Assembly (NCBI GenBank): GCA_947628155.1 | Contig: CANQYQ010000008.1 | Span: forward strand, 1-35,674 | Origin: an uncultured Clostridia bacterium | GTDB lineage: Bacteria > Bacillota > Clostridia > UBA1381 | Direction: 5' to 3' | DNA: 35,674 nt | In this document: positions 1-34,369 of the stretch, one piece after another | Layout: every line of letters begins with the position of its first letter | How positions within the stretch are numbered: position 1 is the first letter of the stretch | Notes under the pieces: generated by a model | What the model was told of the DNA's origin: nothing | Database searches by the model: none | The model's input: the letters and a program-made list of their open reading frames with translations, nothing else | Position numbers and translations under genes: made by a program

Positions 1-128
1 AATGCCACCTCCCTTTGACAAGGGAGGCTAACACCCGCCGTATACCATATTGGGTTACGGAACACGGGCGGCCGATGGCCACCCCTACGGTGCTCCCCAT
101 ACGCGTTAGCGCGATAAACATAAATTTA
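1..128. repeat. Right end of a dispersed MITE-like repeat (copy 1, cut by window edge)
   Basis: Bases 1-92 match 34229-34320 at all but two positions by eye, and the segment ends in GCGATAAACATAAATTTA, the same terminus as the copies at 29211-29619 and 33907-34362. It holds two recurring palindromic modules: CCTCCCTTTGACAAGGGAGG, and a GGCGGCC...GGCC module. No coding potential is evident. It lies just upstream of the M20 amidohydrolase gene. Confidence 0.9.
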
Positions 129-21937: not shown

Positions 21938-21970
21938 TTGAACGGAGGATCGGTTTGGCGAGGTATACGT

Positions 21971-22345
21971 ATGAACGAAATAAAAGAACAAATATTGAGG
22001 TACGCAAAGAAAACATATAAAACGATCCCGGACGCGCCGTTTTCGACCGCTCCGACATATTCGGTGCTGCGCCACGGCGGCACGCGCAAATGGTACGCGC
22101 TTTTTATGGACGTGCCGCGAAACAGGCTCGGCATGGACAGCGATGAGCGCGTGGATATTTTAAATGTCAAATGCGACCCGATATTATCGGGTTCGCTTCG
22201 CATGAATAAGGGATTTTTGCCGGCGTACCACATGCACCGCGAGAATTGGCTGACAATACTTCTCGACGGAACGGTCGGCGCGGAGGATATTTATCCGCTG
22301 CTCGATATGAGCTACGAGCTGACAAAGAAAAAGAGAAATAAATAA
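21971..22345 (+). CDS. MmcQ/YjbR family protein
   Basis: Small cytosolic protein of 124 aa with the CyaY-like fold of the MmcQ/YjbR family, often annotated as DNA-binding without firm evidence. Family features are the TYSVLRHGGTRKWYALFMDVP segment (first 20 residues are the match), LNVKCDP and the MNKGFLPAYHMHRENWLTI region. A TTG at 21938 would extend it by 11 codons, but ATG 21971 with GAGG upstream fits the family N terminus (MNEIKEQILRYAKK) better. It lies between the acetyltransferase and the restriction-like gene. Confidence 0.85.
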   Translation: MNEIKEQILRYAKKTYKTIPDAPFSTAPTYSVLRHGGTRKWYALFMDVPRNRLGMDSDERVDILNVKCDPILSGSLRMNKGFLPAYHMHRENWLTILLDGTVGAEDIYPLLDMSYELTKKKRNK

Positions 22346-22402: not shown

Positions 22403-22445
22403 ATTTGCTTGCATATAAAATTTTATTAGTAAGGGGAATATTATT

Positions 22446-24296
22446 ATGATTAAAAATATTGAACCAACGCTGCGCAGGATCGGCAATTATCTTAAGCTTG
22501 AGGATAACGCTGTTTTTGCTGTCCCGGAATACCAGCGGCCGTATTCATGGGAAATAGAACATTGCGATAAATTATGGCAGGATATTATTGATTTTATAGA
22601 CAGCGATAATAATGACAACTACTTTTTCGGTACAATAATTATCAATTGTCAAGATAACAATACAGTACTCGAGCTGATTGACGGACAGCAAAGGACCACC
22701 ACGTTCATGCTGCTTCTCAAGGCTCTTTTGCTGCGCGTCAACACCGCGATAGAGACCACGGCGCGGGATGAGGAGTCTGCCGGCCTTTTCAGAGGCTTAA
22801 AGGAGCGAAGAAGAAAAATAATGGGTATTTTATACAAAGCCGATCCCGAGGATATACCGGACAGGCCCGATATTGAAGCGGATAGGGATATTTACGCGGA
22901 TGCGTAGATCATAAAAAATTATTCCATTAACGAATTATATAAGACAGAATTGCAGTCTGTATTAAGCTCCGCTGATTTTGCCGAGGCCGAGTCAAGGGTC
23001 ATTAAAATTGCCCGAAAACAAAAGGATAATAAATATACAAACTTTTTCAGGAACTTCAAATTTTTCTATGAAAGAGCAAAAGAGCTTTCCGATTCGCAGC
23101 TCAATATTTTCACAAAGACGCTGACTGAAAGCTGCGAGGTCATAGAAATTAAGAGCTGGCAAACGGAGCAGGCTATAACCATGTTTAATTCCCTAAACTC
23201 GGACGGACTGCCTCTCTATGATTCCGATATTATTTCCGCGAAATTGTACGCGGCTGCCAAGGAGAACGGGACGGGAGATGAATTTACGAAGCTTTGGAAG
23301 GAGCTGATCGGACTTGTTAATGAATTAAAGCGGGATGATATTGCGGATATTGACGCAATTTTGATGCAGCAGATGTATTATGAGAGGGCAAAGAACTCGG
23401 AGATGGTGTCCCAAACAGGCTCGATTAACGTGACGACGCCCGGCTTAAGGAGATACTTTACGGATATAAACAGGAATATACTTCGCGACCCTGTCGGATT
23501 ATGCAAAAAGCTGATAAATCTTGCGCTGATATGGAAAAAGACTGCGTCATATCCCATGATTCGGGTTTTACTTAAATTTAACGATAACGCGAAGCTGTTT
23601 TTGGCAAGCTATTTCCATCGTTTTACAGCTAATGAAATAAGCGAGGACACGATAAAGGATATTGTGGAATGCCTTTTGAAATTGTTTGCGGTGCTGGAGC
23701 TGGTGGATATCGTATATTCCAGCAGCGCGTTTAAAACGTTCCTTTTCGGGGAAATAGTGAAATTGGCCGACGGCAATGTGCCGGCCGAAGAAATTAAGAA
23801 GGATTTTGACAGGCATATCCATGAAAAATGGAGTAAGGATAAAATCAGGGCGGATGTAATTGAGTACGATAAAAATATGCTTGTTTATTTGAATGAGTAT
23901 CTTTATGCCAAGGAATACAGCCTTAATTTTAACATAGGAACAAAATGTGATATTGAGCATATCATGCCCATCAGCGGCGCTAATATCGATGAAATCAGAA
24001 AAGACGCGCAGATTGAGAGCACGGAGGAATTTGAAGGCATAGTAAATAAGCTCGGTAATAAAATATTGCTTGAAGAAAAAATAAACCGGGCGATTGGAAA
24101 TGAATGGTTTAGGACAAAGGTGTCAACGAAATTATCGGATAAAACCGGGTATGTTGACAGCAGCTATCCTATTGCGTCGGCGTTAGTCGGGAAATTCGCG
24201 GACGTTAATAAGCCTTACTGGTGCAAGAAGGATATTGAAGACGCGACCGAAAAGATAGGCGACAGAATCATTAAATTTATATTTGGCGATCGATAA
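22446..24296 (+). pseudogene. GmrSD-like DUF262-DUF1524 restriction protein interrupted by one TAG
   Basis: Two ORFs (22446-22907 and 22950-24296) are in the same frame and separated only by the TAG at 22905-22907; read through, they give 616 codons, a normal GmrSD-family length. The DUF262 half shows VPEYQRPYSWE (26-36), DGQQRTTT (79-86), and after the stop MFNSLNSDGLPLYDSD. The DUF1524 half has the HNH-like CDIEHIMP, then LGNKILLEEKIN and IGNEWFRTK. GmrSD proteins are NTP-dependent nucleases against modified phage DNA. AAGGGG precedes the first ATG; nothing resembling a ribosome binding site precedes the second ORF, whose track start is a TTG. It may be a recent nonsense mutation, a suppressible stop or a sequencing error. 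No partner genes adjoin it. Confidence 0.85.
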
Positions 24297-24388: not shown

Positions 24389-24760
24389 TTAAAGTTCAAC
24401 GATCGTTTCGACCTCGAGCAGCACATCCTTAGGCAGCCGCGCGACTTCCACGCACGAACGCGCCGGATAAGGCTCGGTGAAAAATTCGGCGTAAATTTCG
24501 TTGATTTTCGCGAAATCGTCCATGTTTTTAATAAATACGCCGGTTTTTACCACATTAGCCATACTGCCGCCGGACGCCTCGATGAGGTTTTTCACATTTG
24601 TCAGCGCCTGCCGTGCCTGCGCCTCAACGCCTTTTGGGATCTCACCCGTTTCGGGATCAATGGGTATCTGACCCGACGTGAACAGCATATTGCCGCTGAT
24701 TATCGCCTGCGAATACGGGCCGATGGCCGCGGGTGCGGATGTTGTTTTTACTTCTTTCAT
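24389..24760 (-). CDS. ridA: RidA family enamine/imine deaminase
   Basis: Hydrolyses reactive 2-aminoacrylate-type enamines and imines released by PLP enzymes. It has 123 aa, the standard trimeric RidA length. Recognisable family segments are [12 protein letters not shown] at residues 9-20, [14 protein letters not shown] at 28-41, [12 protein letters not shown] and [16 protein letters not shown], where Arg in ARSC binds the substrate carboxylate. GGAGG before the ATG overlaps the end of the upstream membrane-protein gene (stop codon four bases before), so the two are translationally close and cotranscribed. A PLP lyase-like gene is about 2 kb away on the same strand but in a different transcription unit. 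Confidence 0.95.
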
Positions 24761-28476: not shown

Positions 28477-29209
28477 CGTGCTGACGCTTTTCCCGGAGAT
28501 GTTCGAGGCGGTACTCGGCGAAAGCATAATCGGACGCGCAAGGGATGCCGGTATAATAGAAACAAATTTTATAAATATACGTGACTATACGAAGAACAAG
28601 CACAGGAAGGTGGACGATACTCCGTACAGCGGCGGCGGGGGCATGCTTATGACGGCGCAGCCGATATACGACGCGTATATGTCGGTTGCCGAGGGCCTTT
28701 CGTATAAGCCGTATACGATTTATATGTCGCCGCAGGGAAAGGTAATGACGCAGGAGACGGTAAAAAAGCTCGCGGCGGATTATGAGCATATCGTTATTTT
28801 ATGCGGTCATTACGAGGGCGTTGACCAGAGGGTGATAGACGAAATCATCGACGCGGAAATATCGATAGGCGATTTTGTGCTTACCGGCGGCGAGATCCCC
28901 GCAATGGCGGTTATTGACGCTGTATCGCGTATGCTGCCGGGTGTGCTCGCGGACGAAGGCTCGTACAGTAATGAATCGCATTTTAACGGACTTTTGGAAT
29001 ATCCGCAGTATACAAAGCCAGCAGAGTGGAACGGACACGGAATACCGGAGATTTTAATAAGCGGGCACCACGCGAAAATTGAGGAATGGAAACGTGAGCA
29101 GTCGCTTGTAAATACACTGAAAAAACGCCCCGATTTGCTTGAAAAGGCGGAATTGACGGAAAAGGACAGGGCGTTTTTGAAACACGCGGTACATGACGGG
29201 GAAATATGA
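28466..29209 (+). CDS. trmD: tRNA (guanine37-N1)-methyltransferase TrmD
   Basis: Methylates G37 of tRNAs to prevent frameshifting. It has 247 aa from the ATG inside the end of rimM. Knot-fold signatures are FDVLTLFPEMFEA at the N terminus, RKVDDTPYSGGGGMLM around residue 50, LCGHYEGVDQRVID and SIGDFVLTGGEIPAM. A TTG two codons earlier (28460) is an alternative start. In most Firmicutes rplS follows trmD; here a MITE-like repeat follows instead and rplS is absent from the window. Confidence 0.96.
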   Translation: MRFDVLTLFPEMFEAVLGESIIGRARDAGIIETNFINIRDYTKNKHRKVDDTPYSGGGGMLMTAQPIYDAYMSVAEGLSYKPYTIYMSPQGKVMTQETVKKLAADYEHIVILCGHYEGVDQRVIDEIIDAEISIGDFVLTGGEIPAMAVIDAVSRMLPGVLADEGSYSNESHFNGLLEYPQYTKPAEWNGHGIPEILISGHHAKIEEWKREQSLVNTLKKRPDLLEKAELTEKDRAFLKHAVHDGEI

Positions 29210-29210
29210 A

Positions 29211-29619
29211 TCTATCTTTATCGCGCAAATGCGTATGGGAAACCCGAACACCGTAGGGGCGGCCATCGGCCGCCTGTGTTCCGTAACCCAATATGGTATA
29301 CGGTGTGCGTTAGCCTCCCTTGTCAAAGGGAGGGGGACCATGCGTAGCATGGTGGAGGGATTCATATTTACAGAAAACCGCATATTGCGGCGATTTGTTG
29401 AAATTGCGGAATCCCCCAGTCAGCTTCGCTGACAGCCCCCTTTGACAAGGGGGGCCTTAGCAGAGCGTTCCCGTGAGTGAAAATCGTATATTGGCACGAT
29501 TGTAGGGGCGAACCGTGTTCGCCCGTGTTCCGTAACACAATATGGTATGCGGCGGGACGTCGAGGGCACCGTCCCCTACAGTGCTCCCCATACGCATTAG
29601 TGCGATAAACATAAATTTA
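29211..29619. mobile_element. Dispersed MITE-like repeat, copy 2
   Basis: Its right end GCGATAAACATAAATTTA (29602-29619) is the terminus shared with copies 1 and 3, and the left end reads TCTATCTTTATCGCGC, a decayed inverse. Internally it carries the same modules as copy 3 in opposite order and strand: GTAGGGGCGGCCATCGGCCGCC, CCTCCCTTGTCAAAGGGAGG, GAAAACCGCATATTGCGGCG, GCAGAGCGTTCCCGTGAG. The ORFs called across it are translated repeat, not genes. No transposase is encoded. It fills the trmD to serine acetyltransferase gap. Confidence 0.88.
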
Positions 29620-33906: not shown

Positions 33907-34362
33907 TAAATTTATGTTTATGCGTGTAAATAGCCTTCCCCTTGAGGGGAAGGGGGACCGCGCAGCGGTGGATGAGGTGTTTAACAAACCATATTGGGTT
34001 ACAGAACACGGGCGGCCGATAGCCGCCCCTACGAAGGCCCCCTTGTCAAAGGAGGCTAACGCTCGCCGTATGCGATTTTCGCTCACGGGAACGCTCTGCT
34101 TGCGCCCCTTGTTAAAGGGGAGAGGGCCAACGAAGTTGGCGAGGGGATTCCGCAATTACAATAAATCGCTGCAATATGCGGTTTTCTGTGAAAATGAATC
34201 CCTCCGTCATTTGCTCCCGACGGTCGCAAATGCCACCTCCCTTTGACAAGGGAGGCTAACACCCGCCGTATACCATATTGGGTTACGGAACACAGGCGGC
34301 CGATGGCCGCCCCTACGGTGTTCGTGTTTCCCATACGCAACCGCGCGATAAACATAAATTTA
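33907..34362. mobile_element. Dispersed MITE-like repeat, copy 3 (complete)
   Basis: A non-coding 456-bp element with terminal inverted repeats: left TAAATTTATGTTTATGCG (33907-33924) and right CGCGATAAACATAAATTTA (34344-34362). Inside are palindromic modules: CCTTCCCCTTGAGGGGAAGG, GGCGGCCGATAGCCGCC, ATTTTCGCTCACGGGAAC, CCTCCCTTTGACAAGGGAGG and GGCGGCCGATGGCCGCC. The 34229-34320 part equals the window start with two mismatches, and most modules recur inverted in copy 2. It separates frr from uppS. The ORFs called in it (33914-34246, 34083-34355) are repeat translations. Confidence 0.9.
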
Positions 34363-34369
34363 TCATGTA

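Follow-up and report, generated by a model that had tools for sequence, protein, structure and literature searches.

A stand-alone gene of the DUF262-DUF1524 (GmrSD) type, located in a 35,674-nucleotide stretch of DNA from an uncultured, gut-type Clostridia bacterium (hereafter the window), was probably acquired horizontally and recently inactivated by one nonsense mutation at codon 154. The gene spans positions 22446-24296 as one 616-codon frame, which opens with ATG at 22446, closes with TAA at 24294-24296 and contains a single internal stop (Table 1). At the given base composition, the chance of finding 462 open codons past this stop is about 3e-13, and that of finding the first 153 codons open is about 7e-5. 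Each of the two pieces has a match to the Pfam family GmrSD_N. The 5' piece (7.8e-25) covers profile positions 5-78 of 199, while the 3' piece carries the remainder at positions 121-198, together with a GmrSD_C match above the cut-off (1.3e-12).

A preliminary description of this DNA had reported two halves in one frame with intact motifs and codon 154 as the sole stop. Coordinates and motif positions bear this out: the rest of the frame is open, and VPEYQRP (residues 26-32), DGQQRT (79-84) and CDIEHIMP (501-508) are all in place.

Table 1. Features of the interrupted gene and its surroundings (window coordinates)
Feature	Position	Strand	Remarks
YjbR-family gene, upstream neighbour	21938..22345	+	Housekeeping-type; outside the system
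Likely ribosome-binding site AAGG	22427..22445	+	4-nt match, 11 nt from the ATG
5' piece	22446..22907	+	153 aa from the ATG up to the premature TAG; conserved first half of DUF262/GmrSD_N (YQRP, DGQQRT)
In-frame TAG, codon 154	22905..22907	+	Hypervariable linker of the DUF262 domain
3' piece	22908..24296	+	Same frame, 462 codons then TAA; second DUF262 half and entire DUF1524/GmrSD_C HNH domain
Nearest possible restart codon, TTG (codon 169)	22950..22952	+	Only a 3-nt Shine-Dalgarno match; unconvincing
RidA-like gene, downstream neighbour	24389..24760	-	Named from sequence; outside the system

Domain family and predicted fold

Read through the stop, the frame matches GmrSD_N (PF03235) across residues 16-267, thus crossing codon 154, at 117.9 bits against a curated cut-off of 33.2, and GmrSD_C (PF07510) at 49 bits against a cut-off of 23. 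The (I/V)DGQQR motif and the E/D-H-N-N nuclease residues were named as functional in GmrSD by Machnicka et al. (PMC4619093). Their counterparts here (IDGQQR at 78-83, E504, H505, N538 and N547) are all present and occupy invariant alignment columns. Among PADLOC models, HEC-06 ranked first for the protein (5.9e-40), followed by the Orf5 and SspE models, and no NCBIfam model was found for it. An AlphaFold2 model built from 55 sequences (mean pLDDT 88) retrieved DndI (9jfl), SspE (6jiv, 7drr, 7drs) and BrxU (7p9k, 7p9m) with Foldseek, and nothing else at E <= 0.001. Together, the Pfam, PADLOC and Foldseek matches identify the protein as a single-chain restriction-type enzyme of the DUF262-DUF1524 family.

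The known systems resemble the window gene to different degrees. GmrSD and Eco94GmrSD, modification-dependent Type IV enzymes with PF03235 and PF07510, share its domain order (both curated Pfam cut-offs are passed), the DGQQR motif and the E-H...N...N nuclease residues. The single-chain form is the common one in that group and is also the form encoded here (PMC4619093, PMC4437046). Unlike these enzymes, the window gene has a stop inside DUF262, and its sequence lies far from the characterised members. BrxU possesses the same two domains and matches the model at a Foldseek E of about 1e-5, but identity in the fold alignment is only about 15% and no BREX genes adjoin the window gene. Of the solved structures, DndI and SspE (9jfl, 6jiv, 7drr) match best in both fold and sequence; they depend on a phosphorothioation system, whereas DndC has no match in the genome draft and no Dnd companion modification genes neighbour the gene in the window. 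HEC-06 is a candidate system, known here as a PADLOC model only, with a function established no further than its domains. Since TAG occupies codon 154, the gene lacks one intact translated frame. Judged from its sequence, the window gene is an interrupted member of the GmrSD-type (DUF262-DUF1524) restriction enzymes and would encode no working enzyme.

Relatives and the site of the interruption

A scan of GTDB genomes yielded 80 loci encoding relatives, from which 76 full-length sequences (47-75% identity) were aligned with the window copy. None of these 76 carries an in-frame stop, and stops were likewise not found in relatives or phage copies. Codon 154 falls in a highly variable stretch of the N domain, flanked by the domain's two conserved blocks; among relatives, 17 different residues occupy its column. 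In the predicted model, it lies in a loop that joins the helix at 143-152 to the strand at 156-158. Searches for a second strain with the gene, and for copies of the same strain in viral contigs, returned none.

No neighbour is conserved across the loci of the relatives, which leaves an obligatory partner unsupported. Loss of such a partner was ruled out on this ground, the neighbours in the window being of housekeeping type only. About 14 of the 80 relatives adjoin Type I restriction genes, and most do not. In Ruminococcus flavefaciens YRD2003 and a closely related MAG (L037:25-9249 and L038:226-9224), an intact relative sits inside a Type I restriction locus with hsdR-type, hsdM and hsdS genes, accompanied by a tyrosine integrase and by additional hsdS-like pieces that face either way. 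This arrangement looks like an invertible specificity locus. A different relative, from the Oscillospiraceae MAG Th196P3bin40 (L114:6102-7490), is missing about 100 N-terminal residues including DGQQR while retaining the HNH domain; as far as the sequence tells, it is a second, independently decayed copy.

Genomic context and horizontal origin

The gene is absent from all four genus mates searched. Within the family, a close relative (64% identity) occurs in only one of the 69 other genomes searched, and a wider search of the order revealed no further close copies. G+C content is 0.41, compared with 0.47-0.54 in the other window genes sampled, and the nearest sequences in the tree come from Oscillospiraceae, Lachnospiraceae and other gut Clostridia. 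This patchy distribution, the low G+C and the tree neighbours all point to horizontal acquisition. Related genes were also found on plasmids and phages (23-36% identity) and on two viral contigs (50% identity).

Intergenic repeats containing CATATTGGGTTACGGAACACGGGCGGCCGATGGCC are interspersed in the window (1-128, 29206-29619 and 33945-34363). Their arms measure 91-131 nt and are up to 97% alike in direct and 92% in inverted orientation. At a separate locus (L142:6488-6862, - strand), a 125-aa CobU-like frame follows a CobS gene and aligns with no more than the final third of the CobU profile, possibly representing a truncated or frameshifted cobinamide kinase.

Age of the interruption and selection on the gene

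The window copy contains neither a second stop nor a frameshift. A random substitution in this gene has a chance of about 3.2% of producing a stop, and the absence of any additional one puts an upper limit of about 0.05 substitutions per site (95%) on neutral evolution after the gene was inactivated. Very recent inactivation was one of four options named beforehand, and it emerges as the best supported, given the frame free of further stops and frameshifts and the complete lack of stops among 76 full-length relatives. We therefore infer that the loss was recent, as far as the surviving frame can date it.

The claim that no other damage is visible stands for stops, frameshifts and motif residues; for substitutions it holds only in part. 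No column otherwise invariant in the family is substituted in the window copy. At positions where four outgroups agree, it has nevertheless accumulated 23-29 changes, against 4-12 in the sister lineages. Changes at conserved positions are 2-7 times as numerous as in its closest relatives, and the excess is seen on either side of the stop. Weakened selection may have preceded the stop; alternatively, this lineage may just have a faster rate of evolution. Saturation of synonymous sites kept dN/dS from deciding between the two.

Assembly error and allelic variation

The main rival is a one-base error in the draft consensus, or a strain chimera, with the gene intact in the organism. We regard this as unlikely. 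A single wrong base would give the same picture, and the draft is broken into 238 contigs at 86% completeness. The frame is intact apart from the stop, and relatives hold varied sense codons at this column. Against an error, the site is neither a homopolymer nor a repeat. Moreover, no other Pfam-checked in-frame junction in 1.36 Mb resembles a split gene, which indicates that such errors are infrequent in this assembly.

Coexistence of intact and stopped alleles, exchanged by mutation, reversion or recombination, had been put forward as population-level on/off variation. Defence genes are costly and often polymorphic, and a stop within an otherwise conserved gene would suit such a scheme. Positive support for switching did not emerge, however: the repeat search was empty near 22905, with no slippage tract, inverted repeat, inverted segment or duplicate at the site, and the genome contains a single GmrSD_N gene. 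Reversion of a true nonsense mutation is also too rare to serve as a switch. This explanation is accordingly improbable.

TAG as a stop codon in this genome

Full-length protein could in principle be produced if UAG were read through by a suppressor tRNA, by pyrrolysine insertion or under a recoded genetic code, and the wholly intact sequence past the stop is compatible with this. For the genome at large, the evidence contradicts it. RF1 and RF2 are both encoded; the RF2 gene prfB (L171:10311-11351, contig C21) contains one internal TGA, as would be expected for its usual programmed frameshift. A survey of stop usage across 1.36 Mb recovered 85 long coding frames ending in TAG, and these do not run on: past a TAG, another in-frame stop follows after a median of 19 codons, compared with 13 codons past a TAA and 8 past a TGA.

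Fourteen other same-frame TAG junctions in this 1.36 Mb were read through and scanned with Pfam. They either carry different families on each side or place the junction outside any domain, as expected of neighbouring genes and not of split ones. A second list of same-frame junctions, to which no coding-score filter was applied, consisted mostly of antisense frames and was left out. The proposed check for many TAG-interrupted genes thus returned 14 other junctions, none of which lies inside a protein family. No CTA-anticodon tRNA appeared among the recovered tRNAs, which make up an incomplete set in this draft, and no PylS exceeded the cut-off in the draft. A change of genetic code was ruled out by stop usage, run-on lengths, the Pfam junction check and the presence of both release factors; pyrrolysine is made unlikely by the lack of a PylS match above the cut-off in the draft. 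TAG functions here as a regular stop codon, and read-through of codon 154 is highly improbable.

Translation restart could instead yield the two halves separately, to reassemble like the two-gene GmrS/GmrD form. GmrS and GmrD are indeed two proteins in E. coli CT596 (PMC4619093), and the break here falls in a loop of the predicted model. Yet it lies within DUF262 instead of at the boundary with DUF1524, the closest start codon is the TTG at codon 169 with its 3-nt Shine-Dalgarno match, and none of the relatives is split at this point. A natural two-gene split was ruled out by the position of the break and the lack of split relatives, and restart-based reassembly is very doubtful.

Least credible of all is a gating role for UAG, whereby the cell would make the nuclease only upon entry of a UAG-reassigning phage (code 15) that brings its own suppressor tRNA. 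UAG-to-Gln recoding is documented in gut phages (PMC9523058, PMC10879173), and, if the idea were true, the phage's own recoding would switch on the restriction enzyme; nothing beyond the intact frame after UAG supports it, and the lack of the stop in every relative speaks against it.

Functional consequences and biological meaning

By analogy with GmrSD, BrxU and SspE, the N domain of the intact protein would recognise modified DNA and either bind NTP or hydrolyse it, and the C-terminal HNH domain would then cut. Under the favoured reading of a recent nonsense mutation, only the 153-residue fragment would be made, leaving the cell without the activity of this gene. That fragment lacks half of the DUF262 domain and the entire HNH nuclease, so no activity is expected from the window gene, and the first ATG past the stop appears only at codon 246. 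Loss of function is hence a sensible inference from the truncated product.

The cost of nuclease autoimmunity or conflict with a plasmid would be a plausible driver of the loss, and plain drift after relaxed selection could also suffice. In Pseudomonas fluorescens, loss-of-function mutations in PFLU4242 (DUF262 and DUF1524) relieve the cost of large plasmids, making selection against such genes a known force (PMC8544851). PFLU4242 of strain SBW25 resembles the window gene in its two domains; the difference is that its loss-of-function mutations were selected during laboratory plasmid evolution.

Most likely, an ordinary restriction gene of Type IV-like character has been interrupted here by one real, isolated nonsense mutation, an event unremarkable for bacterial defence genes. 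Defence genes of this kind are widespread, and a single copy interrupted by a nonsense mutation carries little weight alone. If alleles prove to be mixed, the locus would offer a usable natural polymorphism to measure the cost of Type IV restriction. It also provides a natural case beside laboratory evidence that genes of the DUF262-DUF1524 type can carry a cost and be lost by single mutations, and it fits the frequent gain and loss of such defence genes.
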